Position numbers and translations under genes: made by a program. A stretch of 64,000 nt of DNA from Flavobacteriaceae bacterium MAR_2010_72 (GTDB taxonomy: Bacteria > Bacteroidota > Bacteroidia > Flavobacteriales > Flavobacteriaceae): the NCBI GenBank assembly GCA_003550275.1, contig QXCW01000002.1, forward strand, positions 806,001-870,000, in the 5' to 3' direction. Every line of letters begins with the position of its first letter. The first letter of the stretch is position 1. The notes under the pieces were generated by a model. That model did no database searches. It saw nothing but the letters and a program-made list of their open reading frames with translations, and was not told where the DNA came from. Shown in pieces: positions 6,001 through 55,103 of this stretch.

Positions 6001-6532
6001 TGGTGAAAATGTAGTGTTCTATGTCAATGAAGATGTTCAGATCGAAAAAGGATCTAATGTAAAAGCACGTATGCACTTAAATGGTCATGAGCTATTGGCA
6101 AAAGGTGAAGCTGGGAACAAAAATAAAGCTCCAGAGCCAACCTACATGACGGGACTGTTTATAGCGAACAGGGTACACGGTAGTATTAACGTGGTATGGA
6201 ATGCCGACGATGTATGTAGTCCTTGTCCAATTGAGGTGCCTGCAAGCTCAAGTGCTGCAAGGCCAGAACCAAGTATAGATAGTCTAGAGGAATTTGCCGT
6301 GGCATCATGGCCAAACCCTTCTAAAGCCAACTTTAGCTTGAAAGTCAAAACTCTGGATAGAACCAATCGCATTCAAATTCAGGTGTATGACATGAGCAAC
6401 AAATTGGTACACACTAAACAGTTTAATCCAGACGATGAGTACCGTTTTGGAAACGAATTGGAAGCAGGTGTGTATATGGTGAAAATTTCCCAAGGTGGGA
6501 AAGTAAAAACCGTCCGATTGGTTAAGTATTAA
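2..6532 (+). CDS. Giant secreted adhesin-like protein, T9SS substrate (5' end outside window)
   Basis: The frame is open from the window edge, so this is the last 2176 residues of a longer protein; a GTG at 164 is internal. In order: Ig/PKD-like beta-sandwich domains (to about 1530), HYR-type repeats with the DNC/DAC and EDN-P motifs (about 1550-2270), six near-identical 85-residue HYR-like units (2273-3802), an HYR unit interrupted by a lamin-tail-like domain (about 3967-4434), three more HYR units (about 4510-5240), an Ig-like stretch, a beta-helix-like region (about 5530-6200), and a C-terminal type A sorting domain beginning near 6313 (PNPS...LEAGVYMVKI...VRLVKY). The tail marks export by the type IX system and attachment to, or release from, the cell surface. 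Even spacing of cysteines in HYR units suggests disulfides. Likely adhesion or surface-layer role; the ligand is unknown. Domain names come from motif reading, not a profile search. Confidence 0.9.
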   Translation, partial: CVGSNPANITTSIVNGNPPFSYQWQLNGSDILDATDSSYDPPVINSVGIHQYRVVVTDVCGKSATSAPKTINVNPDPSISVIAGNTEICSGYTATLEVLGIPGAGNCSYTWQTGPSVSGPWTSINPAENNAQYTTPSLTQTSYYRVIYNCSGSGCGQSTQVFTVTVKSLIDYANLQFPGSETICPGNTITAYGQVFENGLTNTSNSLVTSISAQFAYHTSDTDPSTWPEANWTTANPTPGYNFAQNNDEYFATFGDALSPGTYYYTFRYSLEGCDWQYGGYPSGFWNGNNQNNGVLTVLEDHTLSLSSANNNQTVCPNTAINDIVYTFGGGATSASISPALPEGLNFNPATATLSGTPTQPGIYNYTVTTVGNNCETQQLPGLITVKELLDYVNLQHPASATICEGETIDVYGQVYEPELTEANGAGSGIVAQLGYGTTTDPTSWTNWISTDYYGQGGINNNNDEYKATFGASLSQGTYYYTFRYSLNNCEWQYGFFVGTSDLGQLTVNSVPVITTTYNNITAGNDSGQCGAIIIYADASVSGVPTPNITYSLASGSSFPVGTTTVTVTASNSCGTDTKTFDVTVEDNEAPIITCVANSIRDTDAGQCTYTIQGAEFDATFTDNCAIGSITNNYTNSTSLAGAVFLEGATTVTWTVDDGHGQTATCTTIITIEDNEAPELAGVPSDVNADCDNIPLAASPTASDNCDPSPSIALNEVSTQDPNAANSGHYNYSITRTWTATDVAGNSSSGVQVITVQDVTPPTITDVADVTVNCEDDTTSAATGVATGSDNCSPVAITQSDVSTQNNDPNTAGHYNYTITRTWRATDVTGLFTESTQIITVQDVTPPTITDVADVTVNCEDNTTSAATGVATGSDNCSPVAITQSDVSTQNNDPNTAGHYNYTITRTWRATDVTGLFTESTQIITVQDVTPPTITDVADVTVNCEDDTTSAATGVATGSDNCSPVAITQSDVSTQNNDPNTAGHYNYTITRTWRATDVTGLFTESTQIITVQDVTPPTITDVADVTVNCEDDTTSAATGVATGSDNCSPVAITQSDVSTQNNDPNTAGHYNYTITRTWRATDVTGLFTESTQIITVQDVTPPTITDVADVTVNCEDDTTSAATGVATGSDNCSPVAITQSDVSTQNNDPNTAGHYNYTITRTWRATDVTGLFTESTQIISVQDVTPPTITDVADVTVNCEDDTTSAATGVATGSDNCSPVAITQSDVSTQNNDPNHAGHYNYTITRTWRATDVTGLFTESTQIISVQDVTPPIVDCVGLTIQLNASGNATITADQLNKNSYDNCSPVSLNVSQTSFSCSDIGGDLDELIISEYINGSNDNKAIEIFNGTGLPVDLLAEGYTLEIYPNGGGIVQIPLNGTISDRDVFVTANNFISFPIGTRSPVDYLTDDLFFESNDVIALLHNGQVVDYIPAAGWMNTLVRKDTVLGGNISGDLTEWTQYPLNTFTFLGSHTITVIDKGNNVLLTVTDVSGNSATCEAKVYVEDNIDPHVECNPITIQLDATGNYVLTQADYNAVGLGSSDACGIASMTVLPNVFDCTNVGPNQVTLTVTDKNGNSDTCTTTITVEDKVNPIAVCQSITIQLDANGNASIVPANIDGGSSDACGFTLSASQTVFDCSNVGANTVTLTVTDANGNTAECDATVTVEDNVDPTAICKDITVYLGADGTVTIAEDAVNNGSNDACGGLTYDTDITSFTCADVNNPVSVMLTVTDANGNSSSCSATVTVIGIIPDVSISQGPLPEFCQGAFDVLTVQLGSGQTEDDIRSYAWSYTGVDAGFPIGEPTNENSIRVKGNGTYTVAVTSETNCTTTVSYTVTGFDATALISSYTILAKNEVFLHGSNIVQTGGVGATEPNTGTIKLHQASTIVGFGKAPLFNLNQGSQINGGTINQPANPVIPPFQFNTVSNASSPNVVVTTNTTLSGAIYGTVEVRDGATVTFSQSNIYINNLKTFQGAKIEFTGCANVYLNEKFMLAQNGVINSGGENVVFYVNEDVQIEKGSNVKARMHLNGHELLAKGEAGNKNKAPEPTYMTGLFIANRVHGSINVVWNADDVCSPCPIEVPASSSAARPEPSIDSLEEFAVASWPNPSKANFSLKVKTLDRTNRIQIQVYDMSNKLVHTKQFNPDDEYRFGNELEAGVYMVKISQGGKVKTVRLVKY
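2273..3802 (+). repeat. Six tandem 255-bp in-frame repeats
   Basis: Six head-to-tail units of exactly 255 bp (85 codons) start at 2273, 2528, 2783, 3038, 3293 and 3548. They differ at only a few bases each. A diverged seventh copy lies just upstream (about 2027-2272). Several variants alternate or pair: ACC versus ATC in the AATGAC/TCCAAAC segment reads C,T,C,T,C,T along the units, while units 5 and 6 share private changes (GGAGTT, ACGAGA, ATCTCG). This fits expansion by a 510-bp dimer plus gene conversion. Confidence 0.97.
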
Positions 6533-41308: not shown

Positions 41309-43852
41309 TTAAAAGTTAATTCTTAAACTAAAATTTGGGGTTAAACCAAGTGAAGTATTGTTAATCTCTATGGCTTCATTTGAGTTATTAGGATTTACTT
41401 CGTAATACCGGTTAATATTATTTTTTCGATCAGTTAGATTGATAACACCAGCTCTTAATGAAGCTTTTATAGCTTCTGAAAACGCAAAACTATAGTTCAC
41501 AGACGCATCCAGTCGTAAAAACTCATCCAATCGTTCGCTGTTTGGCGTGTCATAGTTCACAAAGATTGAATTTCCGTTTTGTACAGTTTCATTGCCTTCA
41601 ACAGGTTTTGTATAAGGTTTTCCAGTTCGCCAAATACCACCAAGAGATACTTGCAAATCATCCAGAAGATCATAGTTAAATGCTAGTGAAAGTGAATGCC
41701 TAATGTCTACATTATTAGGGAATTTTGAAGGCGTAAAGGTCTCGAATTCGTAATCGTTGGTGCTGTAGGTATAACTTAACCACGTACTGTAAACATCAGC
41801 CGTTTTATTGGCTAGGAATTCTATGCCTTTTGCTGTATAGCTTCCAGAAGCATTTACATATTGAAAGTTATTGTAAAACCCTTGATTAGAAGCTGTGATA
41901 CCGTCAACTAACTTGTAAAATGAAGTGACTTCAATATTTAAATTGTTTTGGTTGAATTCCACTCCAAACGATCCTTGTTTACTTGTTGCAATTGGAATTG
42001 AACCATTGTCTGCCAATACCCATCTGCGGTTTTCAACACCAAGGAAGTCTTCCTGAAAATCGACTTTCTGTGTAGCAGATTGGTTTTTAAACTCACCTTC
42101 CAATTTCAAAGCCAATCTATTGGATAGCTTTTGCCTAATGTTTAGTCGTGGCTCAATTAAAAGTTTGTCAAATTTCTGAAAGTAATTAACGCGTACTCCA
42201 GCTCTAAAATACGTTTTGTTTTTTCTGTACTCAACTTCAGAGAATAGGGCATGATTAATAAGTACATCTTTTTTGGTAAGTTCGTATTCAGGAGAACTCA
42301 CGGTGGTTTCATTCAAAATACCTGTTTCATTGAGCTGATAGCCTGATAACACATTCAAATTTGGATCAAGGGTTAAGGTGGAATTGATTTTGATTCCAGT
42401 ATCAAGCACTTCATTGCTTTGGGTTAAACGTTGGTCTGTTTCAACTCTGTAGTCTGTTGCATCCACATTATATTTTGAATAATACCCAGTAAGTTGTGTG
42501 CTAAAATTGTCGGTCCATTGTCCGTTCCATTGTAACCCATAGCCTAAATTAGTTTGCGATAAGTTGCTGGTCTTGGATTCTGTGGTATTTTCTGAAGTTG
42601 TAAAACTTTCGGCATAGTCTAAATTATTAGTGATACCGATAAGGTTTGCCCTAAAGCTGTGATTATCGTTTAGATCTACAAGTAATTTAGCGGTGTAATC
42701 ATAAAACATAAAATCTGATGAGGTTTCAGCATTTGCATTATTGTCTGAAGGCGTATTGATTTCACTGTCTTGAAAACTTCTATTAAAGTAATTATCATAG
42801 GTAGGCGTGCTAAACACATCTGTAAATGAACGTCGACCAGAAATGTGAAAAGCCACATTCTTGGTGATTGGGACTTCTAAAAAAGCGTCGGTACTAATTA
42901 AGTTTAATCCAGTACCTCCATTTATTTTTGAGTTGATCTTATCTTTAGTGAAAATATTGATAGTACTCGATACGCCGTCACTATATTGGGTACTAGTACC
43001 GTTTTTTGTAACGATAACTTTGTCGGTTAAGTACGGATTATAGGCTGATATCAACCCGAAAAAATGCCCAGAATGGTACATTTTAATGCCATCCCAAAGT
43101 ACAAGGTTTTGATCATTGGTGCCACCTCTAACATTGATATTGGCTATACTTTCGTCCACGCTTTCTACACCTGGAAGTGCCTGTATGGATTGTAAAATAT
43201 CAGGCTCTATTAAACCGGGTAAAATCCCAAAAGCTTCAGTATTTAAAACTGTACTTCCATCAATTAATTTTTGGAGTCCTGTGGTTAAGAATTTGGTGAT
43301 AAGCACCCGGTTTAAGGTTTCACGTACTTCTCCCAACAAAATACGTTTACAAGTACTATCGGGCGAAAACAATTGTTTAGCATCAACTTGTTTGGTCTCA
43401 AATCCTAAAAAGGAGATGGTCAAGACAGAATTGGCAGAAATGTTCTCGAGTTTGAATAGGCCTTCAGTATTGGCTATGGCGCCTGTATAGGTGTTATTAA
43501 CCGCTATAGTAGCTCCAAATAGAGGTGTGGCATTTTCTAAACTAATTACATACCCACAAATATTGATTTGCTTATCAATGACCGAAACAGTAATATATCT
43601 ATCATCTAATAATTTAAAATTGAGTAATGTTTTAGAATTTAAGTAGGTAATGGTTTCCTGTAAAGTTAAAGAAGGATCAGGCTTTTCAATAAAAATATCC
43701 TTGACATCATTAACGGCATAAGATACCTTGACATCAAATTGGGTTTCTAAAACAGTAATCACCTCTTCTAACGGAATGGTTGGAGTATTGGTTTGAGCCA
43801 TTCCTAGGCTTGAAACTGAAAGCAAAATGTATAAAAAACACCTATTTACCAT
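41309..43852 (-). CDS. TonB-dependent receptor with STN and regulatory domains (cassette A)
   Basis: 847 residues from the ATG at 43852, chosen because it starts the signal peptide (MVNRCFLYILLSVSSLGMAQ) with a short overlap of fecR; an ATG at 43882 is possible. Domains: STN signalling domain (about 22-95), CarboxypepD_reg sandwich (about 100-180), plug (about 205-320; VRGGTNDQNLVLWDGIKMYHSGHFFG), then a 22-strand-type barrel ending in an aromatic residue (FSLRINF). The STN domain contacts FecR across the periplasm and marks this as a signal-transducing receptor. It is paralogous to the receptor of cassette B. Ligand unknown. Confidence 0.93.
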   Translation of the reverse strand: MVNRCFLYILLSVSSLGMAQTNTPTIPLEEVITVLETQFDVKVSYAVNDVKDIFIEKPDPSLTLQETITYLNSKTLLNFKLLDDRYITVSVIDKQINICGYVISLENATPLFGATIAVNNTYTGAIANTEGLFKLENISANSVLTISFLGFETKQVDAKQLFSPDSTCKRILLGEVRETLNRVLITKFLTTGLQKLIDGSTVLNTEAFGILPGLIEPDILQSIQALPGVESVDESIANINVRGGTNDQNLVLWDGIKMYHSGHFFGLISAYNPYLTDKVIVTKNGTSTQYSDGVSSTINIFTKDKINSKINGGTGLNLISTDAFLEVPITKNVAFHISGRRSFTDVFSTPTYDNYFNRSFQDSEINTPSDNNANAETSSDFMFYDYTAKLLVDLNDNHSFRANLIGITNNLDYAESFTTSENTTESKTSNLSQTNLGYGLQWNGQWTDNFSTQLTGYYSKYNVDATDYRVETDQRLTQSNEVLDTGIKINSTLTLDPNLNVLSGYQLNETGILNETTVSSPEYELTKKDVLINHALFSEVEYRKNKTYFRAGVRVNYFQKFDKLLIEPRLNIRQKLSNRLALKLEGEFKNQSATQKVDFQEDFLGVENRRWVLADNGSIPIATSKQGSFGVEFNQNNLNIEVTSFYKLVDGITASNQGFYNNFQYVNASGSYTAKGIEFLANKTADVYSTWLSYTYSTNDYEFETFTPSKFPNNVDIRHSLSLAFNYDLLDDLQVSLGGIWRTGKPYTKPVEGNETVQNGNSIFVNYDTPNSERLDEFLRLDASVNYSFAFSEAIKASLRAGVINLTDRKNNINRYYEVNPNNSNEAIEINNTSLGLTPNFSLRINF

Positions 43853-44753
43853 TGTACTGATAGAATATAACATTTTTTCCATCCAATTTATAGCTTAATT
43901 TTAGGGGAATTGTCACAGATTCTAGAGCAGTGGCTTTGTTGTCATGTGTAAATGTTCCCGTATATAATTGGTTGGTATCAATACCATCAATTTGTATGTT
44001 TATGTCGTATTGCCGCTCGAGTTCATCAATAACTTGTGCTAAAGGTACTCTATTAAAACTTGATTCAGACTGCATCCACGAAGGTTTTAAAGAAGAAACG
44101 TCCTTAAAATGCTCGATAGTTCCATTGATGACCCTAAAAATGTTTCCTTTAGAAAGTTTAACTGTTTCATTGTTGTAAGTAACACTAACCAATCCTTCAT
44201 AACAATGCACTTCAAAATAGTTATCGCGTTCTTTTACATTGAATTGTGTCCCTAAAACCTTAACAATACCGGCAGTGGTGTTTACGCTAAAAGTTTGTCC
44301 TTTACTCACTTTAAAAAAGGCTTCACCATCCAGATCCAGATCTCTTTTATTTTGCCAAGTTTTTTTATTGAAACTCAAAACAGATTCGGCATTTAAAATT
44401 ACTTCAGAATTGTCAGGTAAACTTAATAGTCGAGTTTCTGCAAGTTCTGTTTTAAAGGTCTGTTGTGTGTTAAAAAACAAAAAGTAGGATGAGGTTAATA
44501 ATATTGCTATTACAGCAGCAACCTTCATGATGGATTTATAATTGAAGTGGATGACTTTACCTGCTTTTTTAGTATGCTTGGCCTTAAATGCTTCAAGAGC
44601 TTTTTGAGCATCTAATTTTGGGGCTTCCAATTGAGATGCGTAATAGCCAATCTTTTCTAAAGCTTTAAAATCATCAGACTGTTTTAAGTCCTTTAATTCG
44701 GCCTCTGAAAGTTCGTTATCAAACCATTTTAATATGTCTTTTTCGCTATTCAT
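43842..44753 (-). CDS. FecR-type anti-sigma factor (cassette A)
   Basis: 303 residues: cytoplasmic N-terminus that should hold the sigma factor, one transmembrane helix (about 76-94), a periplasmic FecR domain (LDLDGEAFFKVSKG, VKVLGTQFNVKERDNYFEVHCYEG) and a C-terminal DUF4974-type STN-like domain. It overlaps the receptor gene by about 11 bp. A GGGTA motif about 40 bp upstream probably marks an ECF-dependent promoter. Confidence 0.95.
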   Translation of the reverse strand: MNSEKDILKWFDNELSEAELKDLKQSDDFKALEKIGYYASQLEAPKLDAQKALEAFKAKHTKKAGKVIHFNYKSIMKVAAVIAILLTSSYFLFFNTQQTFKTELAETRLLSLPDNSEVILNAESVLSFNKKTWQNKRDLDLDGEAFFKVSKGQTFSVNTTAGIVKVLGTQFNVKERDNYFEVHCYEGLVSVTYNNETVKLSKGNIFRVINGTIEHFKDVSSLKPSWMQSESSFNRVPLAQVIDELERQYDINIQIDGIDTNQLYTGTFTHDNKATALESVTIPLKLSYKLDGKNVIFYQYNGK

Positions 44754-44784
44754 CGTTTACTATTCTGTAAATAAGACAACTATT

Positions 44785-44803
44785 GTTTTTTTTACCCTAC
44801 GGA
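44785..44803 (-). promoter_or_regulatory. GGGTA motif before fecR of cassette A
   Basis: On the minus strand reads CCGTAGGGTAAAAAAAAC, with GGGTA at 44797-44793, 40 bp before the fecR ATG. The same motif at the same distance precedes fecR of cassette B, so it is a candidate recognition or start element for the ECF sigma factors. Confidence 0.55.
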
Positions 44804-44816
44804 AAAGTTTAACTTT

Positions 44817-45332
44817 TTATAAATTTTTTATTTGTCGCCTTAAAATTTGCAATGCACCAGACATTCTCTTTTCTACCGTTTTTTGCGATATGCCTAAAAT
44901 TTCGGCAATTTCCCTGTATTTTTTTCCATCAATCCGATTCATTAAAAAAACTTCACGTTGATCTTCACTTAAATCCGAAATGGCATTTTGGAGCTTTTGC
45001 TTAAACTCCTCTTCTTCCATAATATATTCAGGACTCTGATTGTCTTTATCCTTATATGGTGAAGCTTTTGCATATTTTAAAACCACCTTTTGGTGTTTAA
45101 CCGTATTTAAGAATAAATTATTAACGGTAGTAAATAAATAGGTTTTGGCTTTGTTTACATCTATTTTTGAGCAATTTTCCCAAATTTTGGCAAAAGCCTC
45201 TTGAACTAAATCTAATGCCGCATCGCTATTACCACATTTATAAAACGCAAAATTACTTGCAGATTGTAAATGCTTGACATAAAAATCGTTGAAATATGAA
45301 TCATTACATAGATTGTGTTCAGAGTTGTTCAT
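44817..45332 (-). CDS. ECF sigma factor (cassette A)
   Basis: 171 residues with sigma region 2 (about 20-90; ALDLVQEAFAKIWENC) and region 4 (about 115-168; LSEDQREVFLMNRIDGKKYREIAEILGIS). No extra domains. Expected to be held by the FecR protein encoded 63 bp downstream and released when the receptor is loaded. It is divergent from the cassette A lipoprotein. Confidence 0.95.
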   Translation of the reverse strand: MNNSEHNLCNDSYFNDFYVKHLQSASNFAFYKCGNSDAALDLVQEAFAKIWENCSKIDVNKAKTYLFTTVNNLFLNTVKHQKVVLKYAKASPYKDKDNQSPEYIMEEEEFKQKLQNAISDLSEDQREVFLMNRIDGKKYREIAEILGISQKTVEKRMSGALQILRRQIKNL

Positions 45333-45597
45333 ATACTACTTTGGGATATTTTTACCATTGCAATATTATAACAATTTAAGATAATTAGACAGTGCTATAT
45401 GATTAAAATTAGTATCAAATCAAAGTGCTGTTGTTTTTTGTTTAATTTAAATCACAGATTATCAAATACTTATATATTAATATCAAAAAAAGTCAAAAAA
45501 GTATAGGGAAAAATAGAAGATGGTTGTCTTACTAATAGAACGGCAAAATAAATTGCTGTGAAAAAGAAAAATAACCCAAATTATAAAAATTAGAATT

Positions 45598-46650
45598 ATG
45601 AAAACGATCAAAAGTATTTTAGGAATTAGTTTAATAGCTTTATTGAGTTTTACGTCCTGTCAAGACGAAATTGACAATCAAATTGGGGAAAACCCAAACA
45701 CCAATGATGCCAATTCGGTAGCCGCCAGTAATTACAAACGTACCGCGATGCACGATGGTTCATTTGATGATTTTTTAGATGGCAACTCTTGTTCATCTAT
45801 ATTATTGCCTGTGATTGCAACCGTAAATGGAACCCAAGTTTCTGTTATAAGTCAATCAGATTATCAACAAGTTCTAAATATTTTAGGACAGTTTAATACC
45901 GATGATGATCAGGTGACTTTACAATTTCCTTTTACAGTGAGATTGAGCAATTATACTGAAGTTTTAGTGACATCTCAAGGAGAATACGATGCTATTATAA
46001 GCGCATGTGAAGCTGCTGAAGCTGAAGGAAAAGATGCCATTTCATGTCTGGACATTGAATTTCCAATTACCATTTTGACCTATAATTTAAATTTTGAGCA
46101 AACAGGTAGTTTAGTCATCCAGTCTGAACAACAATTATTCGCTTATATGGACAATTTAGGTAATGATGAATTATTTTCAATCAGTTATCCAATTAGCATC
46201 ATGTTCAGTAACGGAACTTCTGCAAGTGTAGACAGTGATGCTAGTTTACAATCAAGTATTAATGATTGTTTAGAAGAGCAAGATGCCGAAGAAGAAGCTG
46301 AAGAACGTGCTGATGCTCTTGAACAAATATTAGTTGACGGTACGTTTAAAGTACAGTCGTTTGTAAATTCAGGAGTTGAATCTGCTAATAATTATGCAGA
46401 GTTTACTATCGATTTTGCTAATGACTTAACGGTCAAGGCCGACAATGTAGTGAATGCTCTAGTTGCTGATGTTGAAGGAACTTACGCAGTAACTTCACAA
46501 ACTGAAGTGTTCTTAAGTTTGAACTTTAGTGGTTCAACATCATTTAACCTCTTAAATCATACTTGGGAAGTAACCAGTTTTAGTAGCACATCAATTTCAT
46601 TGAAGAGTACTACAAATGCTGCAGTGACTTTAGTTTTGACACAGATTTAA
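45598..46650 (+). CDS. Lipoprotein of the cassette-linked family, short form (cassette A)
   Basis: 350 residues. Lipobox at SFTSC (Cys20). The N-terminal two thirds match the cassette B lipoprotein: DGSFDDFLDGNSC, LPVIATVNGTQVSV, FPFTVRLSNYTEVLV, CLDIEFPITILTYNLNF, SISYPISIMFSNGT. Three similar FP-I-T strands suggest a repeated beta domain. One C-terminal beta module of about 105 residues follows (GTFKVQSF...), resembling the lipocalin-like repeats of the B protein. No known family is recognised. Divergent position next to sigma suggests it is the partner or target of this signalling system. Confidence 0.8.
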   Translation: MKTIKSILGISLIALLSFTSCQDEIDNQIGENPNTNDANSVAASNYKRTAMHDGSFDDFLDGNSCSSILLPVIATVNGTQVSVISQSDYQQVLNILGQFNTDDDQVTLQFPFTVRLSNYTEVLVTSQGEYDAIISACEAAEAEGKDAISCLDIEFPITILTYNLNFEQTGSLVIQSEQQLFAYMDNLGNDELFSISYPISIMFSNGTSASVDSDASLQSSINDCLEEQDAEEEAEERADALEQILVDGTFKVQSFVNSGVESANNYAEFTIDFANDLTVKADNVVNALVADVEGTYAVTSQTEVFLSLNFSGSTSFNLLNHTWEVTSFSSTSISLKSTTNAAVTLVLTQI

Positions 46651-46691
46651 TACCTATTTAGTTAGTTGGTTAGTTAGCCACATGTTATGGG

Positions 46692-46722
46692 AAACAGCTG
46701 TCGGACGATCTGGCAGCTGTTT
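46692..46722 (+). terminator. Hairpin after the cassette A lipoprotein
   Basis: AAACAGCTG (46692-46700) and CAGCTGTTT (46714-46722) form a perfect 9-bp stem. The following T-run is weak, so it could also be an mRNA-stabilising hairpin. Confidence 0.6.
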
Positions 46723-46759
46723 AATTTGAAATTTAATATTAAAATAAAAGTAAATTATT

Positions 46760-47344
46760 ATGAAAACTCAATTGATAACTTTAGTAATATGTTTTGTTTC
46801 TTTATTTGGAATTCAGGCTCAAGATAGTCCGAGTAGAACTTCTAGTGCTGGTATAAAGGGAGGATACAATTTAGCCGCCGTAAGTTTTGATGGTGAAGGG
46901 GAGACCAAGCAGCGACATGGTTTTCATATTGGTATTTACGGAGAATCATTTTTGAATGCCAATATTTCAATACAACCAGAGCTGTTGTATTCTCAACAGG
47001 GTTATGAAGTTAGAAGTGGTGGAGGCACGTATACTCAAAAACTGAATTATATAAACATGCCTCTAATGTTTAAAGCCTACCCAGGAGAAAGCTTCTTTTT
47101 GGAAGTTGGCCCACAAATTGGTTTAGCAATTTCACACAAGGAAGAATTTGAAGGTGGTGTTTTTGATTCAACCCAAGAGTATGACCCCAGTAATTTTGAT
47201 TGGGGAATGAACTTTGGAGCTGGTTTTAAAACCGATTCTGGCGTTAGTTTAGGTGCTCGTTACCATCTAGGGCTAGGAGATATTTATGATGAAGGAAACC
47301 CTAAAAACAGAGTTTGGCAATTTTACATCGGATTTGATTTTTAA
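46760..47344 (+). CDS. Outer-membrane beta-barrel protein (PorT-like)
   Basis: 194 residues: signal peptide (ends IQAQ), then an 8-strand-type barrel with alternating hydrophobic strands (GIKGGYNLAAVSFDGEG, ISIQPELLYSQQGYEV, FFLEVGPQIGLAI, LGARYHLGLGD) and a C-terminal Phe (FYIGFDF), the usual barrel assembly signal. Family: outer membrane protein beta-barrel (OMP_b-brl_2/PorT-like). It lies between cassette A and the protease gene; role not known. Confidence 0.9.
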   Translation: MKTQLITLVICFVSLFGIQAQDSPSRTSSAGIKGGYNLAAVSFDGEGETKQRHGFHIGIYGESFLNANISIQPELLYSQQGYEVRSGGGTYTQKLNYINMPLMFKAYPGESFFLEVGPQIGLAISHKEEFEGGVFDSTQEYDPSNFDWGMNFGAGFKTDSGVSLGARYHLGLGDIYDEGNPKNRVWQFYIGFDF

Positions 47345-47360
47345 AAGAGTATAGCAAAAT

Positions 47361-47400
47361 TGCCCGTTGCATTTATTTTTCATGTAATGGGCAGTTTTTA
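47361..47400 (+). terminator. Terminator after the barrel protein
   Basis: TGCCCGTTGCAT pairs with ATGTAATGGGCA (12 bp, two G-U pairs) around a 9-nt loop and is followed by GTTTTT. Confidence 0.85.
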
Positions 47401-47518
47401 TATATTGCAAACCAGAAAACACATAATTACGTATATTTAAATCCAAATCAGTAAACAATAATTTTCAAGTCATTAAGTTTTAATAACGTTACTTGACCTA
47501 AAACCTACTTTAAACATC

Positions 47519-48292
47519 ATGAAAAAATTATTAGCACTTTTCCTTTTTATTTCAATAGCTGTATCATGTTCAAAAGATGATACACCTGGTGATAATGGAG
47601 GGAATAATGGAAATAATATAACCGCAAACCTCCAGCCTACAGGAAGTTCATCAAACGACTTGCTCTCTGATAATACATTTACTAGTTTGGTAATTGAGTT
47701 GGTTTATGTTGAGGGAAACCAGCCTACGCAAGCAGCTGTGAATAGTTTAGTGTCCTTTATAGGGGCTAGAACCTACAAGCCAGGAGGTATTACTGTGCAA
47801 TCCAGGTCAATCCCATCTCCAGGACTTTCACCTTATACAACACAAGAAATTGCAGATATCGAATCTGTCAACAGAACCCTTTATAATACCTCTAATACCA
47901 TTGCAGTTTGGGCCTTTTTTGCCGATGGAAAAGCAGAAGGCGACACCAGTACCGAAGTAACTTTAGGTACTGCGTATCGCAACACATCGTTTGTGATCTA
48001 TGAAGCCACTATAAAATCGTTAAGTGGCGGCCCTTTTGAACCAAGCACTTCTATTTTAGAATCTGCCGTCATACAACACGAATTTTGTCATATTTTGGGT
48101 TTGACCAATCTTGGAGCTCCTATGCAATCAGCACATGAGGATCCAAATCACTCAAAACATTGTGATGTTGAAAGTTGCTTAATGTATTATGCCGCTGCAA
48201 CCGGAGAAGGGATTTCCATGGTTTCAGGTGGCTCTGTCCCAGAATTAGATGCGCAATGTATTGCGGACCTACAAGCTAATGGGGGTAAATAG
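47519..48292 (+). CDS. Archaemetzincin-like zinc metalloprotease, lipoprotein
   Basis: 257 residues. Lipobox at AVSC (Cys17), an acidic Gly/Asn linker, then a zincin domain. The zinc helix is HEFCHILGLTN, and 17 residues later HCDVESCLM follows. HExxHxxG plus HCx4CxM is the archaemetzincin signature, here split by an insertion. Flavobacterial homologues are usually called membrane metalloprotease. Expected on the outer membrane, facing either side. Substrate unknown. Confidence 0.82.
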   Translation: MKKLLALFLFISIAVSCSKDDTPGDNGGNNGNNITANLQPTGSSSNDLLSDNTFTSLVIELVYVEGNQPTQAAVNSLVSFIGARTYKPGGITVQSRSIPSPGLSPYTTQEIADIESVNRTLYNTSNTIAVWAFFADGKAEGDTSTEVTLGTAYRNTSFVIYEATIKSLSGGPFEPSTSILESAVIQHEFCHILGLTNLGAPMQSAHEDPNHSKHCDVESCLMYYAAATGEGISMVSGGSVPELDAQCIADLQANGGK

Positions 48293-48301
48293 GTTTGAAA
48301 A

Positions 48302-49273
48302 TTATTGAGAACTACTAGTTACTTCAAATACTTTTAGCATATTTTTTCCAGCAGCATTTGGTACTTCAGCAATTAGTGCATATTTACCCGGTCCTAAAGT
48401 TGCATTAAAATACCCTGTATCTCCAGCCAACATATTGTTAACACCACCTAAAAAGGTAATTCCTTGAGGAGCGGGTTCAATTAATCCTTTAGGGTCAGCC
48501 CAATTCATCCAGTTATTAAGTTCGTCCATATTAGCTGTGTCGTCTAGCTTTGCAAGGTTGACATCGTGGCCAAGAAAATGTTCGTGAACGATTTGATCTT
48601 TGAAAAACACAGAAAAAGTATGATTTCCTTCAGTTACCGTTCCATCAAAAACAATACCGTCAGTACTAGAAATTTCTATGGCATAGTCAGCTTCTGGTTC
48701 TTCATTTCCAGAATCTGTTGTTGAGACAACGACCTCTTTTGCCATCCCCATCGAGGTATGAAATACGCCATTACTCATTTTGACATAACACTCAAAAATA
48801 TAAAAACCAGGCTCTAATTTCATAGTTGTATGAGCAACACGTTCAGGTGAAATTAATCCAGTACCACCTATAAATTTAACATCGCCAAACCATATTGGAA
48901 GTTTGCCAAAAGCTGCAAATCCTTCTTCTGGTTTACCTTCATTGATGAGTTTCATGCCTTCATCAAAAACAGGAGCTACAGCGGTTAAAACCGTGTCGAT
49001 GGTTTTGCCTTCAGGGTATTTGTCAATAAGTATAAAGTGCGTTTGTGGTGATGCGTTTTTATAGCGAAATGTCGTCCATCCAGATGGGATGGTGTCTGCC
49101 ATTTGAAAGTCCATGTTTTCCGTTAGGACATCAACAACAGTTTCCTTTTCAACTTCTTCAGTTATGGCTTCTTTTTTATCGGATTTACAAGACTGAAAAA
49201 CGATGGTTAACGTTAAAAAGCTAAATACAATAGTTAAAAATTTGGAGGGATTTGAAATTAGAGAAGTCTTCAT
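48302..49273 (-). CDS. Cupredoxin-like envelope lipoprotein
   Basis: 323 residues. Lipobox at FQSC (Cys29). A first domain (about 45-200) reads IPSGWTTFRYKNASPQTHFILI, then a long helical insert and ECYVKMSNGVFHTSMGM, with the His/Met pattern of a cupredoxin-like copper site. A second half (about 210-320) has a similar strand pattern (HTFSVFF...HEHFLGHDVNLA). Whether copper is bound cannot be told. Convergent with the protease gene, 9 bp apart. Confidence 0.65.
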   Translation of the reverse strand: MKTSLISNPSKFLTIVFSFLTLTIVFQSCKSDKKEAITEEVEKETVVDVLTENMDFQMADTIPSGWTTFRYKNASPQTHFILIDKYPEGKTIDTVLTAVAPVFDEGMKLINEGKPEEGFAAFGKLPIWFGDVKFIGGTGLISPERVAHTTMKLEPGFYIFECYVKMSNGVFHTSMGMAKEVVVSTTDSGNEEPEADYAIEISSTDGIVFDGTVTEGNHTFSVFFKDQIVHEHFLGHDVNLAKLDDTANMDELNNWMNWADPKGLIEPAPQGITFLGGVNNMLAGDTGYFNATLGPGKYALIAEVPNAAGKNMLKVFEVTSSSQ

Positions 49274-49337
49274 AATAAATGGATTGGTTATTAATTATAA
49301 ATGTTAACTTCATAAAAATAAGCATTTTATAATACAT

Positions 49338-51707
49338 TTAAAAATGAACACGTAAACTTACGTTAGGTGTAATCCCCAAAGATTGATTTTCAATGGTCGC
49401 AATGTTGTTGTCAGCATCCAAGGTATAATACGTATTGATAATATTTTTTTGATTGAGAAGGTTCCAAATGGAAGCACCGATAACGGCATTGGTTTTTGGA
49501 CTTAAATCAAACGTGTAGGTAGTTGAAAAATCAGCACGGATATAATCATCTAAACGTGTACTATTAGGTAAAGCGTATTCAATGCGGTCATTAGTGTCAT
49601 CTTGAACAGTACTTGGCAATGTAGATGGTTTGCCAGAATGCCAATTGGCCCCTAAAGCCAATTTAAAATTGTTAAATGCATAAGTGCCTGCGAAGGTGGC
49701 TACATGTCTAATGTCTAGGTTGTTAGGGAACGGGTCGCCATTGTTGAGTGTTTTAAATGTATAATCATTTTTACTGAAGGAATAACTTAACCAAGTACTA
49801 AAGGCGTTGAACTGTTTGTTGATTAAAAAATCTATGCCTTTTGCTCTATAATTTCCAATGGCATTCACAAATTGATATTGGTTTTGGAAGCCTTGACTTC
49901 GAGTAGTAATACCTTTTACATCTTTAATGAAAGCTTCAGCGCTGATCAGTAATTTATTTTTACTATAATGGATTCCAGCAGATAATTGCTTGCTTTTTAT
50001 AATAGGTATTGGAACAATCGAAGGGATTCTGCTTGCATCGGAGGAGTCAGTAGGTTCTGATTTGTTATTTGACAGTACCCATCTTCGATTCTCAACCCCT
50101 AAAAAGTCGTTTTGCAGATCAATAATTTGTGACGTTGTTTGGCTTTTAAATTCTCCCAAAATTTCAAATCTGAAATAGTTTAAGAAACGTTGGTTGAAAC
50201 TTAAGCGTGGCTCTACCAACACCTTATCGAATTTTTTAATGTAGTTGAATCTCGTCCCAAATCTTAAGCTAGTATTGTTGTTATTTGAGCTGTATTTCCC
50301 TTCAATATATAGTGAATTGCTCCTGATAACCTCTTTTATATAACTCCTGAACTCTGGGTTATTAACATCTTCTAAATTGCTGATACCGGTTTCAAAAAAA
50401 TGATAGCCTCCAGAAAGTTTAAGGTTGGAATCTATCGTGTAATCCAAGTCTAGTTTAAAGGCACTATCATACACTTCATTTTCCTGAATTAAACGCTGGT
50501 TATTGGTGAGATCAAAATTTGTGGCATCAAGATTATAATTAGAAAGATAAACTTGCGCGGAGCTCAAAAATTTATCAGACCAATCTCTCGTATATGAAAT
50601 TCCAGTGGCTAAATTACGTTGTAATAAACTACTGTTTAAAACTTCATCAACATTATTGACTCTAGACTGTTCTTCGTAGTTGAGGTTGTTGTAAATAGTT
50701 AAAAAATTGAATCGCAATTTATCTCTTTCTGATAGATCATATAGAAGTTTTGACGTGATATCATAAAAGTAAAATGTTTCATTTTTTGAAATAGAACCAC
50801 TGTTTTGACCTTGATTATTGGTAAGGTCAGAATCCTGAAAAACACGTTTAAAATACTGGTCATAGGTTGGCGTAATAATGAGGTCTGTAACCGAGCGTCG
50901 AGAAGATACTTGTAATTCCATCTTTTTTGAGAGCGGAATCTTTGCAAAACCATCAATATTGATTAAGTTAAATCCAGCGCCAGCTTCAAACTTAGATTCT
51001 ATGTCATTGGATAGCTGCATGTCTAAAATACTCGAAACCCCATCACCAAATTGAGCACTGGTTCCATTTTTGTAGACATTGACCTTTTCTGTTAAGTAAG
51101 GATTGTAAGCCGAAATTAAGCCAAAGAAATGCCCAGATTGGAACATTTTTATACCATCCCAAAGCAGTAAATTTTGATCGTGGGTTCCGCCTCGCACATT
51201 AATATTTGAAACGGTTTCATCCGTACTTAAAACGCCGGGAAGTGCCTGTACGGCCTGTAAAATATCGGGTTCAATCAAACCAGGAAGGATGCCAAACGAT
51301 TTGGGTTTTATGACCACAGTACCATTATTCGTCTTAATAATTCCTGAAGTAAGATAATTATTAATGACAATTTCGGGCAACTGTTCTACCTTATTTTTTC
51401 TTTGGGAAACGTTTGGGGTTTTGATGACTACAAAACGATTATCGAGAACTTCAAAGTCCAATTGAGAGTTCACCTTTAAATAATCTATGGTTTCTAAAAG
51501 TGACCATTCTGGGTTTGGCGGTAAAAGTGTTTTATCCTTTATGGTCTCGTCTGCATACGAAAAAGTAATATCGAACCGTGATTCAATGTCTCTTAAAATT
51601 ATTACAAGCGGTTGCTCTTCTTTTTGAACATTTTGACCCGAAAGGCTAATAAAACAGTTCAGAAAAAAAAAGAATATAAAAAGATATAGAACATCTTTTT
51701 TAGTCAC
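49338..51707 (-). CDS. TonB-dependent receptor with STN domain (cassette B)
   Basis: 789 residues from a GTG start at 51707, which overlaps fecR by 8 bp and leads directly into a signal peptide (LFIFFFFLNCFISLSGQ). STN domain (about 28-105), plug (about 130-245; VRGGTHDQNLLLWDGIKMFQSGHFFG), and barrel ending VSLRVHF. Compared with the cassette A receptor it lacks the CarboxypepD_reg sandwich between STN and plug. The two are clearly paralogous through plug and barrel. Confidence 0.93.
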   Translation of the reverse strand: MTKKDVLYLFIFFFFLNCFISLSGQNVQKEEQPLVIILRDIESRFDITFSYADETIKDKTLLPPNPEWSLLETIDYLKVNSQLDFEVLDNRFVVIKTPNVSQRKNKVEQLPEIVINNYLTSGIIKTNNGTVVIKPKSFGILPGLIEPDILQAVQALPGVLSTDETVSNINVRGGTHDQNLLLWDGIKMFQSGHFFGLISAYNPYLTEKVNVYKNGTSAQFGDGVSSILDMQLSNDIESKFEAGAGFNLINIDGFAKIPLSKKMELQVSSRRSVTDLIITPTYDQYFKRVFQDSDLTNNQGQNSGSISKNETFYFYDITSKLLYDLSERDKLRFNFLTIYNNLNYEEQSRVNNVDEVLNSSLLQRNLATGISYTRDWSDKFLSSAQVYLSNYNLDATNFDLTNNQRLIQENEVYDSAFKLDLDYTIDSNLKLSGGYHFFETGISNLEDVNNPEFRSYIKEVIRSNSLYIEGKYSSNNNNTSLRFGTRFNYIKKFDKVLVEPRLSFNQRFLNYFRFEILGEFKSQTTSQIIDLQNDFLGVENRRWVLSNNKSEPTDSSDASRIPSIVPIPIIKSKQLSAGIHYSKNKLLISAEAFIKDVKGITTRSQGFQNQYQFVNAIGNYRAKGIDFLINKQFNAFSTWLSYSFSKNDYTFKTLNNGDPFPNNLDIRHVATFAGTYAFNNFKLALGANWHSGKPSTLPSTVQDDTNDRIEYALPNSTRLDDYIRADFSTTYTFDLSPKTNAVIGASIWNLLNQKNIINTYYTLDADNNIATIENQSLGITPNVSLRVHF

Positions 51708-52602
51708 GCTTTAAGGTAATTGTTGTATTTGTTTTGTTGTACGTAATATGTAAAGGTAATGTAATTGCCTTTAAAGCGAGGTCTATATTTGAGTGAGAGA
51801 AACCTCCAGTAAACAATTGCGTAGTGTCTATATGGCTTGAATTGATTTTTACATCAAACTGACGTTCAAATTCATCGAGAACCAGTTTATAGGGCATACT
51901 CATAAACTGACTTTCGTTATTAAGCCACGAAGGGGTTGCAAGTTTTTCTTTTTCTTTAGCAATCAATTTCCCATCAATGAATAAAAAGCTGTCTCCAGCC
52001 AATAAGATTGTTTGGTGTTTTTGAAAGTTAACTCCAACTTTCCCTTCGTAGCATATGACTTCAAAATAATTATCACGTTGTTTTACATTAAATTGTGTTC
52101 CCAGAACTGTAACAGTTCCATGTTTTGTAACCACCTCAAACTTGGAGCCTTTGGCTACTTTGAAAAACGCTTCACCTTGAAGGTTAACCTTCCTTTTTTT
52201 GTTCCAATTATGATTGTTAAAAGTTACAGAGGATAATGCATTTAAAGATACAGTTGAGGCATCGGGCAATTCTATATTATTTTCTTTATTAGAGGCTAAG
52301 GTTGAGAAAGTTGTATCTAAGGTGACTGAATAATACACGCTAAAACAAACCACAACAACTGCTGCAATACGTATAGCGGTTCGTACCCAGTTTTGTGGTT
52401 TTGTTTTAGTGGTTTTAATTTGCTTTAGCACATTATCAAGCTCACTAGAACTATCATATTCTGGAGCTTTATAGGCTAGCAAATGACTGTTCATGTTCAT
52501 CAATGCGTCATAATCCTCAAGGTTTTTGAACGCCTCAAGTTCTTCAGCATTAAGCTCATGGTTTAACCATTTTTGTATTAATTCGTCTCGTTTCATCATC
52601 AT
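51700..52602 (-). CDS. FecR-type anti-sigma factor (cassette B)
   Basis: 300 residues; three ATGs in a row (52602, 52599, 52596) can serve as start. Layout as in cassette A: N-terminal sigma-binding part, transmembrane helix (about 85-103), FecR domain (VNLQGEAFFKVAKG, VTVLGTQFNVKQRDNYFEVICYEG) and DUF4974-type C-terminus. Translationally coupled to the receptor. Confidence 0.95.
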   Translation of the reverse strand: MMMKRDELIQKWLNHELNAEELEAFKNLEDYDALMNMNSHLLAYKAPEYDSSSELDNVLKQIKTTKTKPQNWVRTAIRIAAVVVVCFSVYYSVTLDTTFSTLASNKENNIELPDASTVSLNALSSVTFNNHNWNKKRKVNLQGEAFFKVAKGSKFEVVTKHGTVTVLGTQFNVKQRDNYFEVICYEGKVGVNFQKHQTILLAGDSFLFIDGKLIAKEKEKLATPSWLNNESQFMSMPYKLVLDEFERQFDVKINSSHIDTTQLFTGGFSHSNIDLALKAITLPLHITYNKTNTTITLKRD

Positions 52603-52632
52603 GTTTATTATCTATATAACAAGTAAGTTTAA

Positions 52633-52651
52633 TTTTTTCCTACCCTGACTT
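52633..52651 (-). promoter_or_regulatory. GGGTA motif before fecR of cassette B
   Basis: Minus strand reads AAGTCAGGGTAGGAAAAAA, with GGGTA at 52645-52641, 39 bp before the fecR ATG, matching the position in cassette A. Confidence 0.55.
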
Positions 52652-52730
52652 TAAAAAAAAATTCAAAATCAAATTCCAAAGTCTAAAAATTAATGACCTT
52701 AAACAGCGAATGAACACCATAAGCTAATTA

Positions 52731-53246
52731 TCAAAGTCCGTCAATATCTTTCCTCAATTTATCTAATGCGCCATAAATGCGTTTTTCAACAGCTTTGGTC
52801 GAAATGTCCAAAAGACTTGCAATTTCCTTAAATTTTTTCCCTTCAACTCGGTTCATTAAAAAGGCGGTGCGTTGTGCTTCGGTTAAATTTTCTAATGATT
52901 TCTGTAATTTTTCACCGTATTCATTTTCTCGCATTATGAATTCGGGCGTCTCATTAGTATAGTGTTTGGGTTTGGTTTGAGCATATTTTAACTTTACTTT
53001 TTGGTGCGCCGCTTCGTTGAGCATTAAATTATTGGCCGTGGTAAACACAAAACTTTTGGCCTTATCAGGAGGAATCTTACTACAGTTCTCCCAGAGCTTA
53101 ATAAAAGCTTCCTGAACTTTGTCTTTTGGGTTAAATAACTCGCCAAACTTATAATATAAGAAGTCATGTAGATCTTTAGAATAGGTATTGAATATGGACG
53201 AAAATAATCGTTCCTCACAGATGTTATCATAAAGATTCTTACTCAT
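52731..53246 (-). CDS. ECF sigma factor (cassette B)
   Basis: 171 residues, the same length as the cassette A sigma and similar throughout (region 2: QEAFIKLWENCSKI; region 4: LTEAQRTAFLMNRVEGKKFKEIASLLDIS). Region 4.2, which reads the -35 box, differs modestly between the two, so cross-recognition of promoters is possible. Confidence 0.95.
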   Translation of the reverse strand: MSKNLYDNICEERLFSSIFNTYSKDLHDFLYYKFGELFNPKDKVQEAFIKLWENCSKIPPDKAKSFVFTTANNLMLNEAAHQKVKLKYAQTKPKHYTNETPEFIMRENEYGEKLQKSLENLTEAQRTAFLMNRVEGKKFKEIASLLDISTKAVEKRIYGALDKLRKDIDGL

Positions 53247-53287
53247 AAATGGTGGGTTAGGTTGGGCTAATTTAAAAAAAATTAATC

Positions 53288-53302
53288 CGCAAGGGTAGGA
53301 AT
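53288..53302 (+). promoter_or_regulatory. GGGTA motif before the cassette B lipoprotein
   Basis: Plus strand reads CGCAAGGGTAGGAATT with GGGTA at 53293-53297, 63 bp before the lipoprotein ATG. The core GGGTAGGAA is shared with the motif before fecR of the same cassette. A weaker GGGAA (45506-45510) precedes the cassette A lipoprotein. Confidence 0.45.
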
Positions 53303-53360
53303 TTTACAAGTTATCCTGTTCTATACTAAAATTGCAATGTCAAACTTAAACACCTACATT

Positions 53361-55103
53361 ATGAAAACAAAACTTAATTTACTTTTCGTACTTCCTTTTT
53401 TTGCCCTTACAATGTTTACATCCTGCCAGGATGAAGTCATTGAAATTACCGAACCAGATGCACAGGAAACTTTTGTTGCCGAATCTAATGTTGCCAATTT
53501 AATGGCTAGGACATCTACAAATGATGGTTCTTATGACAATATAATAGACGGTTCTCAGGAGTTTTCTGTGAATCTACCAATTACAGTTATTGTAAATGGA
53601 ATGGAGCTTACTATAAATTCAGAAGATGATTTTGAACGTATTGAAGAGATTTTTGATGAATATGAAGACGATGAAGACAGTTTAGAGATCGTTTTTCCTA
53701 TTACCGTAACCTTAAGAGATTATACCGAAGTTGTGGTCAACAGCCGATCAGAGTTGGATGCGCTTAGACACAGTACACCTAATGAAGAAGATGATGATAT
53801 TGAATGTATTGATTTTAAATACCCTTTAACAATTTCAGTATACAATGCTAATTTTCAGGTCATAGATGTGGTCACTATTGAAAATGATAGAGCTTTATTT
53901 AGATTTATTAGAAACTTACCGGGTGGCGTATTAGCTAGTTTAAACTTCCCAGTGACCATGATATATCACGATGGGTCTACAGTTGAAGTTCATAATAACC
54001 AAGAACTTGAGGCTGTTATAACCGCCGCTAAAGATGAATGTGATGAGGATGATGATAACGATTATAATGATGACGACTTTACAAAAGAACGTTTAGATAA
54101 TCTTTTAACCTCTTGTCCATGGATAGTTCATGACATTAGAAGAAACAACACCGATCTAGCGCATGACTATAGAGAATATCTTATGGTATTTAGAGAAGAT
54201 GGAGTGGTTAAAGTAAGAGCTAGAAATGGTGACATGTTAACTGGTACTTGGTCTACTCGAGTTACAAATCATGGCGCTAAAATAACTTTAGATTTTGATA
54301 CCCTTGTTGACTTTACTTTAGAATGGTTTGTTTATGAAATTAGACCTGGTAAGATCAAATTGTTTACCGAAGGCGGAAACAGAATTATCTTGGAGAAAAC
54401 CTGTGATACGGTTGTGGATCAAACTATTGAGCGTATCGAAAACATTCTTAAAGAGTGTTTATGGAGAGTGCATAGACTACATGTAAATGGAAGTGATAAT
54501 GAAGCACAATATATCGGTACACCTTTGAAATTTTTTGCTGATGGTGTTGTGAAAATCAGAATCGATGGTGAATTTGTATCAGGCACTTGGGATGTATTAG
54601 CTTATAACGCAGGCTTTGTGTTGCAAATCAATTTAGAAGGTCGCCCAGATCTGCAGTTAGAATGGTTAATTACCTTCTTAGAGCCTAATTTGATCAAGCT
54701 AGAATCTCAAAATAGCATTATGGTTTTAAAGCAACATTGCCCTGATGGCGATGATGATGTAGACTTTATTAGGGATGTTTTGAATGATGGTCTTTGGAAA
54801 GTAGCCATGTATCAAGATGCAGCTAATCCTCAAAATCAGGATTACAGCATATACAGATTCGACTTTTTGGAAAACGGAGGAATCAAGGTTTTAAACCCTA
54901 ACAATGTCATTGTTGATTTTGGTTCGTGGTTACCATATCGATATGAAGGATTAAATCTTGGATTAAATTTTGGTTCTGAAGCTACATTCAATGAGTTCAA
55001 TCATAGATGGAAAATCAAGGATATTTCTGAAACCAGAATCGAATTGAAAGATTATAGTGCTAACGGAACCGTTGAACGTATATTGGTTTTTGAAAGACTT
55101 TAA
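53361..55103 (+). CDS. Lipoprotein of the cassette-linked family, long form (cassette B)
   Basis: 580 residues from the ATG at 53361, which begins the lipoprotein signal (MKTKLNLLFVLPFFALTMFTSC). The N-terminal part is homologous to the cassette A lipoprotein (DGSYDNIIDGS, LPITVIVNGMELTI, FPITVTLRDYTEVVV, CIDFKYPLTISVYNANF). After an acidic linker rich in Asp come three lipocalin-like repeats of about 100 residues, each opening CPWIVHDI / CLWRVHRL / GLWKVAMY and containing a G-V-x-KVR...GTW pattern. The A protein has one such module, so the family varies in repeat number. Ends with a strong terminator. Confidence 0.82.
   Translation: MKTKLNLLFVLPFFALTMFTSCQDEVIEITEPDAQETFVAESNVANLMARTSTNDGSYDNIIDGSQEFSVNLPITVIVNGMELTINSEDDFERIEEIFDEYEDDEDSLEIVFPITVTLRDYTEVVVNSRSELDALRHSTPNEEDDDIECIDFKYPLTISVYNANFQVIDVVTIENDRALFRFIRNLPGGVLASLNFPVTMIYHDGSTVEVHNNQELEAVITAAKDECDEDDDNDYNDDDFTKERLDNLLTSCPWIVHDIRRNNTDLAHDYREYLMVFREDGVVKVRARNGDMLTGTWSTRVTNHGAKITLDFDTLVDFTLEWFVYEIRPGKIKLFTEGGNRIILEKTCDTVVDQTIERIENILKECLWRVHRLHVNGSDNEAQYIGTPLKFFADGVVKIRIDGEFVSGTWDVLAYNAGFVLQINLEGRPDLQLEWLITFLEPNLIKLESQNSIMVLKQHCPDGDDDVDFIRDVLNDGLWKVAMYQDAANPQNQDYSIYRFDFLENGGIKVLNPNNVIVDFGSWLPYRYEGLNLGLNFGSEATFNEFNHRWKIKDISETRIELKDYSANGTVERILVFERL

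Follow-up and report, generated by a model that had tools for sequence, protein, structure and literature searches.

Does the lipoprotein gene that lies back to back with each of two sigma factor genes in Flavobacteriaceae bacterium MAR_2010_72 encode a working part of the signalling system beside it? The genes in question lie in a stretch of 64,000 nucleotides (contig QXCW01000002.1, positions 806,001 to 870,000; hereafter the window, to which coordinates refer unless a locus is named), in which two cassettes, A and B, each comprise genes for an extracytoplasmic function (ECF) sigma factor, a FecR anti-sigma factor and a TonB-dependent receptor, with the gene of a lipoprotein, LpA or LpB, divergent from the sigma gene (Table 1). 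ECF/FecR/TonB-receptor systems are abundant in marine Bacteroidota, and to our knowledge few of their ligands or regulons have been described. A first-pass annotation of this DNA had taken the constant pairing to mean that the lipoprotein is a working part of the system, for example a surface ligand binder or modulator of the receptor. This interpretation was partly supported by our analysis, namely by the pairing and by predicted co-regulation, whilst the physical role of the lipoprotein is something that we infer: we consider it rather probable, for the whole circuit with docking and ligand capture included, that each cassette is a cell-surface signalling unit whose dedicated lipoprotein works beside the receptor. 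The observations beneath this are the gene pairing, the domain anatomy in predicted models and the paired promoter-like elements together with their co-variation.

The twin cassettes were confirmed: all genes named in the first-pass annotation lie where it had placed them, their Pfam domains agree, and the back-to-back neighbour of each sigma gene is one of two related lipoprotein genes (LpA-LpB, BLASTP: 138 bits, E=1e-40, 29% over 346 columns). The cassettes had also been described as alike in order, orientation, gene sizes and overlaps; gene order and orientation are indeed the same, but the FecR and receptor genes overlap by 41 nt in A and by 8 nt in B, the gap between sigma and lipoprotein genes is 265 nt in A and 90 nt in B, CarbopepD_reg_2 is present only in receptor A and the lipoproteins are of unequal size, owing to three C-terminal barrels in LpB as against a single one in LpA. 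For LpB, both the length of the signal peptide and the promoter-like site suggest that the second ATG (53361) is a more likely start than that at 53337.

Within the bacterial family to which this genome belongs, 203 of 299 genomes contain the N-terminal domain shared by LpA and LpB (N-domain) at E≤1e-6; in a phylum sample it was found in 38 of 395 genomes (E≤1e-5), with 35 of these 38 falling within that bacterial family. Neighbourhoods were taken from 100 places picked from the match lists and 80 named loci, the listed matches being the best-scoring ones: 200 of 212 distinct lipoprotein open reading frames (ORFs) have a divergent sigma gene no more than 1 kb away (median gap 113 bp), and FecR and receptor genes stand alongside in all 130 such loci having more than 6.5 kb upstream. 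Because of this best-scoring bias, we analysed a second sample that was not chosen by score and contained 26 relatives, 70 FecR genes and 20 N-domain matches. Here, 16 of 17 full-length N-domain matches lie within about 3 kb of a FecR gene, the 17th being on a 4.4 kb contig, and three weak partial matches lie away from FecR. Homologues are thus not found mostly away from such cassettes, the outcome that the first-pass annotation had named as speaking against its claim. Counted from FecR, a lipoprotein gene lies within about 3 kb for 16 of the 27 FecR genes with open frames shorter than 335 aa, as against none of the 43 longer ones (Fisher p=5e-9); two more of the 27 are accompanied by a more distantly related repeat protein, which is adjacent in L320 and about 1.3 kb off, with one gene between, in L321. 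The association is strong from lipoprotein to cassette but is confined to one cassette class: the claimed constancy of the pairing holds in this direction and not in reverse, since 11 of the 27 short-frame and all 43 long-frame FecR genes are without a lipoprotein. A half-domain profile retrieved members outside the bacterial family, in f8, f5 and f17 genomes, and these again adjoin sigma-FecR-receptor genes (L151-L153, L311 and L312). A mirror-tree correlation (lipoprotein-receptor r=0.84; receptor-FecR 0.94) was set aside as mostly reflecting shared inheritance. The lipoprotein gene occurs in two tandem copies at L126 (505-2832) and L145 (5057-8763).

The genome itself holds four FecR genes, and the N-domain recurs in it three times with strong scores, in LpA, LpB and a third lipoprotein (L006), which is divergent from the sigma gene of a sigma-FecR-receptor set far away in the genome. 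The divergent side of the fourth cassette (L005) holds a DUF6438 gene, not a lipoprotein gene, and no lipoprotein remnant was found there with three related proteins as queries. This cassette carries the same 27-mer promoter-like element at both places described below, the two sequences being identical; the divergent copy (L005, 6464-6490) points to the DUF6438 gene (5795-6187) about 280 bp off.

Alignment of the intergenic regions between lipoprotein and sigma genes revealed a conserved AGG, followed after 17 bases by TGT..TA and oriented towards the lipoprotein; as AGG-N17-TG[TC] it is found in 42/53, 9/9 and 105/115 lipoprotein loci of the short, middle and long class, respectively. Second copies, between the sigma and fecR genes, surfaced in the search of the own genome, and whereas the lipoprotein-side copies helped to define the pattern, these gap copies constitute an independent test of it. 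Of 166 cassettes, 133 have AGG-N17-TGTYNTA in the sigma-fecR gap (0.4 expected from mononucleotide shuffles; none on the opposite strand), 118 have it on the divergent side (0.45 expected; two on the opposite strand) and 101 have it in both places. Spacers of 13-16 and 18-20 bases gave 0 or 1 match, and N21 gave 37 and 24, which reads as a register echo of a repeated AGG, so that a spacer of 17 otherwise appears specific. The two copies of a cassette also vary together: at the discriminator positions around the boxes, copies from the same cassette agree at 6.87 of 9 positions versus 4.92 ± 0.13 when shuffled (98 pairs). Another 11 cassettes yielded no lipoprotein; of these, the five having a sigma factor of 196-203 aa carry no copy. 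The window contains exactly four matches to the pattern, all at the expected places, a number for which 5 of 100 shuffles give at least four anywhere; counting across the whole genome was uninformative (42 matches, 30 in a backward control), and a match at L258 has no clear gene context.

These matching elements suggest that receptor and lipoprotein are made together as partners, and one sigma factor likely switches on both the lipoprotein gene and the fecR-receptor unit. A lack of co-regulation had been named as the other outcome that would speak against a functional link; the paired elements instead predict co-regulation. The sigma gene itself may be transcribed from an ordinary promoter, given an excess of TAnnTTTG upstream of it (61 of 155 cassettes, compared with 20 after shuffling and 11 when the other strand is read), a sequence that passages of PMC9723704 give as the primary-promoter box of Flavobacterium. 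Two further genes stand near copies of the element. At L269 (1501-2012), an A-type match lies about 45 bp 5' of the gene for a 146-aa secreted His/Tyr-rich protein, a possible extra regulon member, and at L317 (6815-7588) a DUF4382 lipoprotein gene is placed between the sigma and repeat lipoprotein genes, each having a promoter-like element of its own.

AlphaFold models bear out the three-strand motif noted at the N-terminus of both lipoproteins: in LpA (pLDDT 82.8) the N-domain is built of four repeat units, each with three strands and one helix, and is followed by one barrel, and in LpB (pLDDT 81.5) about the same repeats are followed by three barrels. The barrel of LpA (residues 243-350) has a lipocalin-like fold (4qrl, Z 12.1), and those of LpB match solved lipocalin-like proteins (8u2f, Z 11.7; 4qrl, Z 11.5; 8ehc, Z 10.5). 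Scans of LpA and LpB gave no Pfam family at E up to 0.001, a single sub-threshold and unrelated match (in LpA) at E up to 10, and nothing above cut-off in NCBIfam, so that no family of either database covers the N-domain. No sequence relatives of it were found in the PDB, and no listed PDB match in the structure comparison was centred on the repeat domain; as the barrels filled the match lists, its fold cannot be called new. Other C-terminal modules occur in relatives, namely Laminin_G_3 (L031) and, below cut-off, Lcl_C (L157, L158), and some relatives consist of repeats only (L311, L313). Several other identities were considered and rejected: SusD-like, as neither SusD nor any other Pfam family is present in LpA or LpB; TbpB-like for LpB, with a Foldseek E of about 2e-5 and a Z of only 3.1-3.2 on one barrel from a second aligner; and NPC1_N and Ca_tandemer, the matches to which lie below cut-offs. 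At L320 (4469-5965), a repeat-domain lipoprotein without a Pfam match has, by eye, several Cys-rich Kazal-like segments.

Directly past the lipobox Cys, the family has a polar or basic residue followed by acidic ones, in the manner of the lipoprotein export signal (LES) of Bacteroidota surface lipoproteins, given as K-(D/E)2 or Q-A-(D/E)2 in passages of PMC5080379. Residue +2 is Q or R in 113 of 117 family members versus 2 of the 83 flank lipoproteins outside the family, and residue +4 is D or E in 116 of 117 versus 55 of 83; an acidic +4 is also common in the background, which leaves +2 as the better indicator. This conserved LES-like signal suggests that the lipoprotein is exposed at the cell surface.

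From these observations a circuit can be drawn in which ordinary primary promoters probably drive the sigma gene and FecR at the inner membrane holds the sigma factor. The TonB receptor would sense or bind a ligand and signal to FecR through its STN/FecR_C-like N-terminal domain, upon which FecR would release the sigma factor; the free sigma factor would then transcribe two units, fecR-receptor and the divergent lipoprotein gene, from the near-identical AGG-N17-TGTYNTA promoters, and with fecR under its own sigma factor this would give negative feedback. The lipoprotein would reach the surface by its LES-type signal and assist the receptor. Surface location, sigma dependence and signal flow are predicted here from sequence and from the named families. 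The receptor part is consistent with the domains found, as Pfam detects plug and barrel in both receptors and the N-terminal domains of all four receptors of the genome match FecR_C, although only that of the fourth cassette passes the curated cut-off (30.6 bits); those of A and B reach 21.1 and 19.2 bits, under the cut-off of 24.4 (E=3e-4 for A). As for the lipoprotein at the receptor, we infer that the repeat domain, which stays constant, docks at the mouth of the receptor and that the variable C-terminal modules (lipocalin-like barrels, sometimes lectin-like or other) capture or recognise the ligand.

Such a circuit resembles FecI-FecR-FecA of E. coli in its ECF sigma factor, its FecR with FecR_C and its TonB receptor with a putative STN/FecR_C-like N-terminal domain, the receptor being predicted to be under sigma control. 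It differs in that fecR here appears 3' of a sigma-dependent promoter, whereas fecIR of E. coli is not autoregulated (PMC9249621), and in having the lipoprotein gene as a second target. With SusC-SusD and BtuB-BtuG of Bacteroidota (for the latter, parts of PMC10404256) it shares a surface-type lipoprotein gene beside that of a TonB receptor, the product being a likely working partner; LpA and LpB, however, are without the SusD family, and the gene order is divergent. The C-terminal domains have the fold of Bacteroides lipocalin-like lipoproteins (4qrl; DUF4847, 4zgf) and of potempin E at Z 10-12, yet these alignments span the barrels only, not the repeat domain, at an identity of just 12-22%. 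What is new here is the AGG-N17-TGTYNTA element pair and the coupling of a FecR/TonB-receptor unit to a lipoprotein of its own and to a paired promoter; our literature search found no description of this lipoprotein family or promoter pair, which is no proof of absence. The circuit is directly testable, since its predicted core regulon has two units, its promoter code can be read and the lipoprotein is dedicated to it; lipoprotein and promoter code offer a handle on what ECF/FecR-linked receptors sense.

The repeat domain also occurs in another setting. Weak relatives (L156, L157, L158, L160, L161 and L314) are encoded immediately or a short way upstream of a different sigma gene in the same operon, with one small gene in between in L156. 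In the loci read for this (L156, L157, L158 and L314) they are also upstream of a protein that has an N-terminal region and, by eye, a transmembrane stretch and a long low-complexity tether before a barrel-like end; an OMP_b-brl match to this end lies below cut-off in two of three scanned. This module resembles the Dma anti-sigma factors of Bacteroides with their ECF21 sigma factors (PMC13088901); the window cassettes differ from Dma/ECF21 systems in using FecR and a TonB receptor and no Dma protein, and LpA and LpB gave no match to the NigD families of the Dma1 regulon. We raise only tentatively, and with little confidence, the idea that the four-repeat domain is a general adaptor of Bacteroidota outer-membrane signalling barrels, which plugs into FecR-linked TonB receptors and Dma-type barrels alike and leaves sensing to interchangeable C-terminal modules. 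Were it true, ECF signalling would gain a co-sensor of a new class, and a single lipoprotein domain linked to two barrel-based sigma systems would, if the link holds, be a candidate input for Dma anti-sigma factors.

Several points weigh against a lipoprotein that works at the receptor. Twelve of the 212 lipoprotein ORFs are not beside a divergent sigma gene: one is a fragment (L071), three lie at contig ends (L083 and two in L126), one is the second of two tandem copies (L145), six are co-directional and upstream of a sigma gene (L153, L156, L157, L158, L160 and L161) and one has no sigma gene nearby (L155). The sequences are mostly best-scoring relatives from one family, and cassette counts do not represent independent events, orthologous loci being related. 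The promoter-like element is a prediction whose lipoprotein-side copy was used for pattern finding, both copies are carried by the fourth cassette without a lipoprotein, and a lipocalin-like fold is no proof of ligand binding. If the lipoprotein were a mere effector of the sigma regulon, that is a surface adhesin, scavenger or protease inhibitor induced with the receptor and never touching it, co-regulation alone would account for the pairing and the matched promoters; this would also suit C-terminal modules that vary among adhesin-like types (lipocalin-like, Laminin_G_3 and sub-cut-off Lcl_C) and the HExxH lipoprotein gene that follows some A-type lipoproteins (10 loci). We nevertheless regard a mere effector as unlikely, as the N-domain is conserved in proteins that otherwise vary and recurs beside a different barrel signalling module (ECF21/Dma-like): an N-domain that acts on signalling barrels would explain both more readily.

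That two different ECF modules come with the lipoprotein, both having an outer-membrane barrel linked to an anti-sigma factor and one resembling the anatomy reported for Dma (PMC13088901), could also be read as the mark of a negative or positive co-sensor, the repeat domain of which gates the barrel whilst the variable domains read the stimulus, providing signal input and not nutrient capture. However, the Dma-like setting was seen in just a few weak relatives, any regulatory effect is presumed, and a co-sensor of this kind seems to us distinctly unlikely. It is highly improbable that the pairing is a by-product of a vertically inherited gene block with no functional link. The near confinement of the lipoprotein family to one bacterial family would fit such a block, as would the synteny of B-type lipoproteins with ffh (76 of 148 downstream ORFs), but three paralogous cassettes, of which the window holds two and a remote part of the genome the third, have all retained the pairing; so have distant members in other families (L151, L152, L311, L312) and, in re-arranged, co-directional form, L153, and inheritance as a block would not need matched promoters. 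We retain a dedicated lipoprotein working beside the receptor as the favoured explanation.

Table 1. Genes and promoter-like elements of the two cassettes (window coordinates; minus-strand spans: cassette A, 41309-45332; cassette B, 49338-53246).
Feature	Position	Strand	Remarks
Cassette A ECF sigma factor, 171 aa	44817..45332	-	Pfam Sigma70_r2 and r4_2; NCBIfam TIGR02985, 126.7 bits (cut-off 126.4)
Cassette A FecR anti-sigma factor, 303 aa	43842..44753	-	PF04773, 4e-17; PF16344 FecR_C, 3e-10
Cassette A TonB-dependent receptor, 857 aa	41309..43882	-	putative FecR_C/STN-like N-terminal domain (below curated cut-off), CarbopepD_reg_2, plug, barrel
LpA lipoprotein, 350 aa	45598..46650	+	four beta-beta-beta-alpha repeats, one lipocalin-like barrel
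Cassette B ECF sigma factor, 171 aa	52731..53246	-	Pfam r2 and r4_2 over cut-off
Cassette B FecR anti-sigma factor, 300 aa	51700..52602	-	Pfam FecR and FecR_C over cut-off
Cassette B TonB-dependent receptor, 789 aa	49338..51707	-	GTG start; without CarbopepD_reg domain
LpB lipoprotein, 588 aa	53337..55103	+	repeats, three lipocalin-like barrels; likely true start 53361
Promoter-like AGG-N17-TGTCTTA, sigma-fecR gap of cassette A	44772..44798	-	reads into fecR-receptor
Promoter-like AGG-N17-TGTCTTA, 5' of LpA	45505..45531	+	pattern match
Promoter-like AGG-N17-TGTTATA, sigma-fecR gap of cassette B	52615..52641	-	reads into fecR-receptor
Promoter-like AGG-N17-TGTTCTA, 5' of LpB	53297..53323	+	pattern match

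Further genes adjoin the lipoprotein and receptor genes. The HExxH-type lipoprotein gene 3' of LpA (47519-48292) is of the same kind as those after A-type lipoproteins elsewhere. Among the 148 co-directional ORFs just 3' of a lipoprotein gene, 36 form one cluster (median 162 aa, median gap 29 nt), an example of which (L081, 5766-6239) resembles a single lipocalin-type lipoprotein. In cassette B, a lipoprotein-like gene (48302-49273) lies directly 3' of the receptor gene in the same direction.

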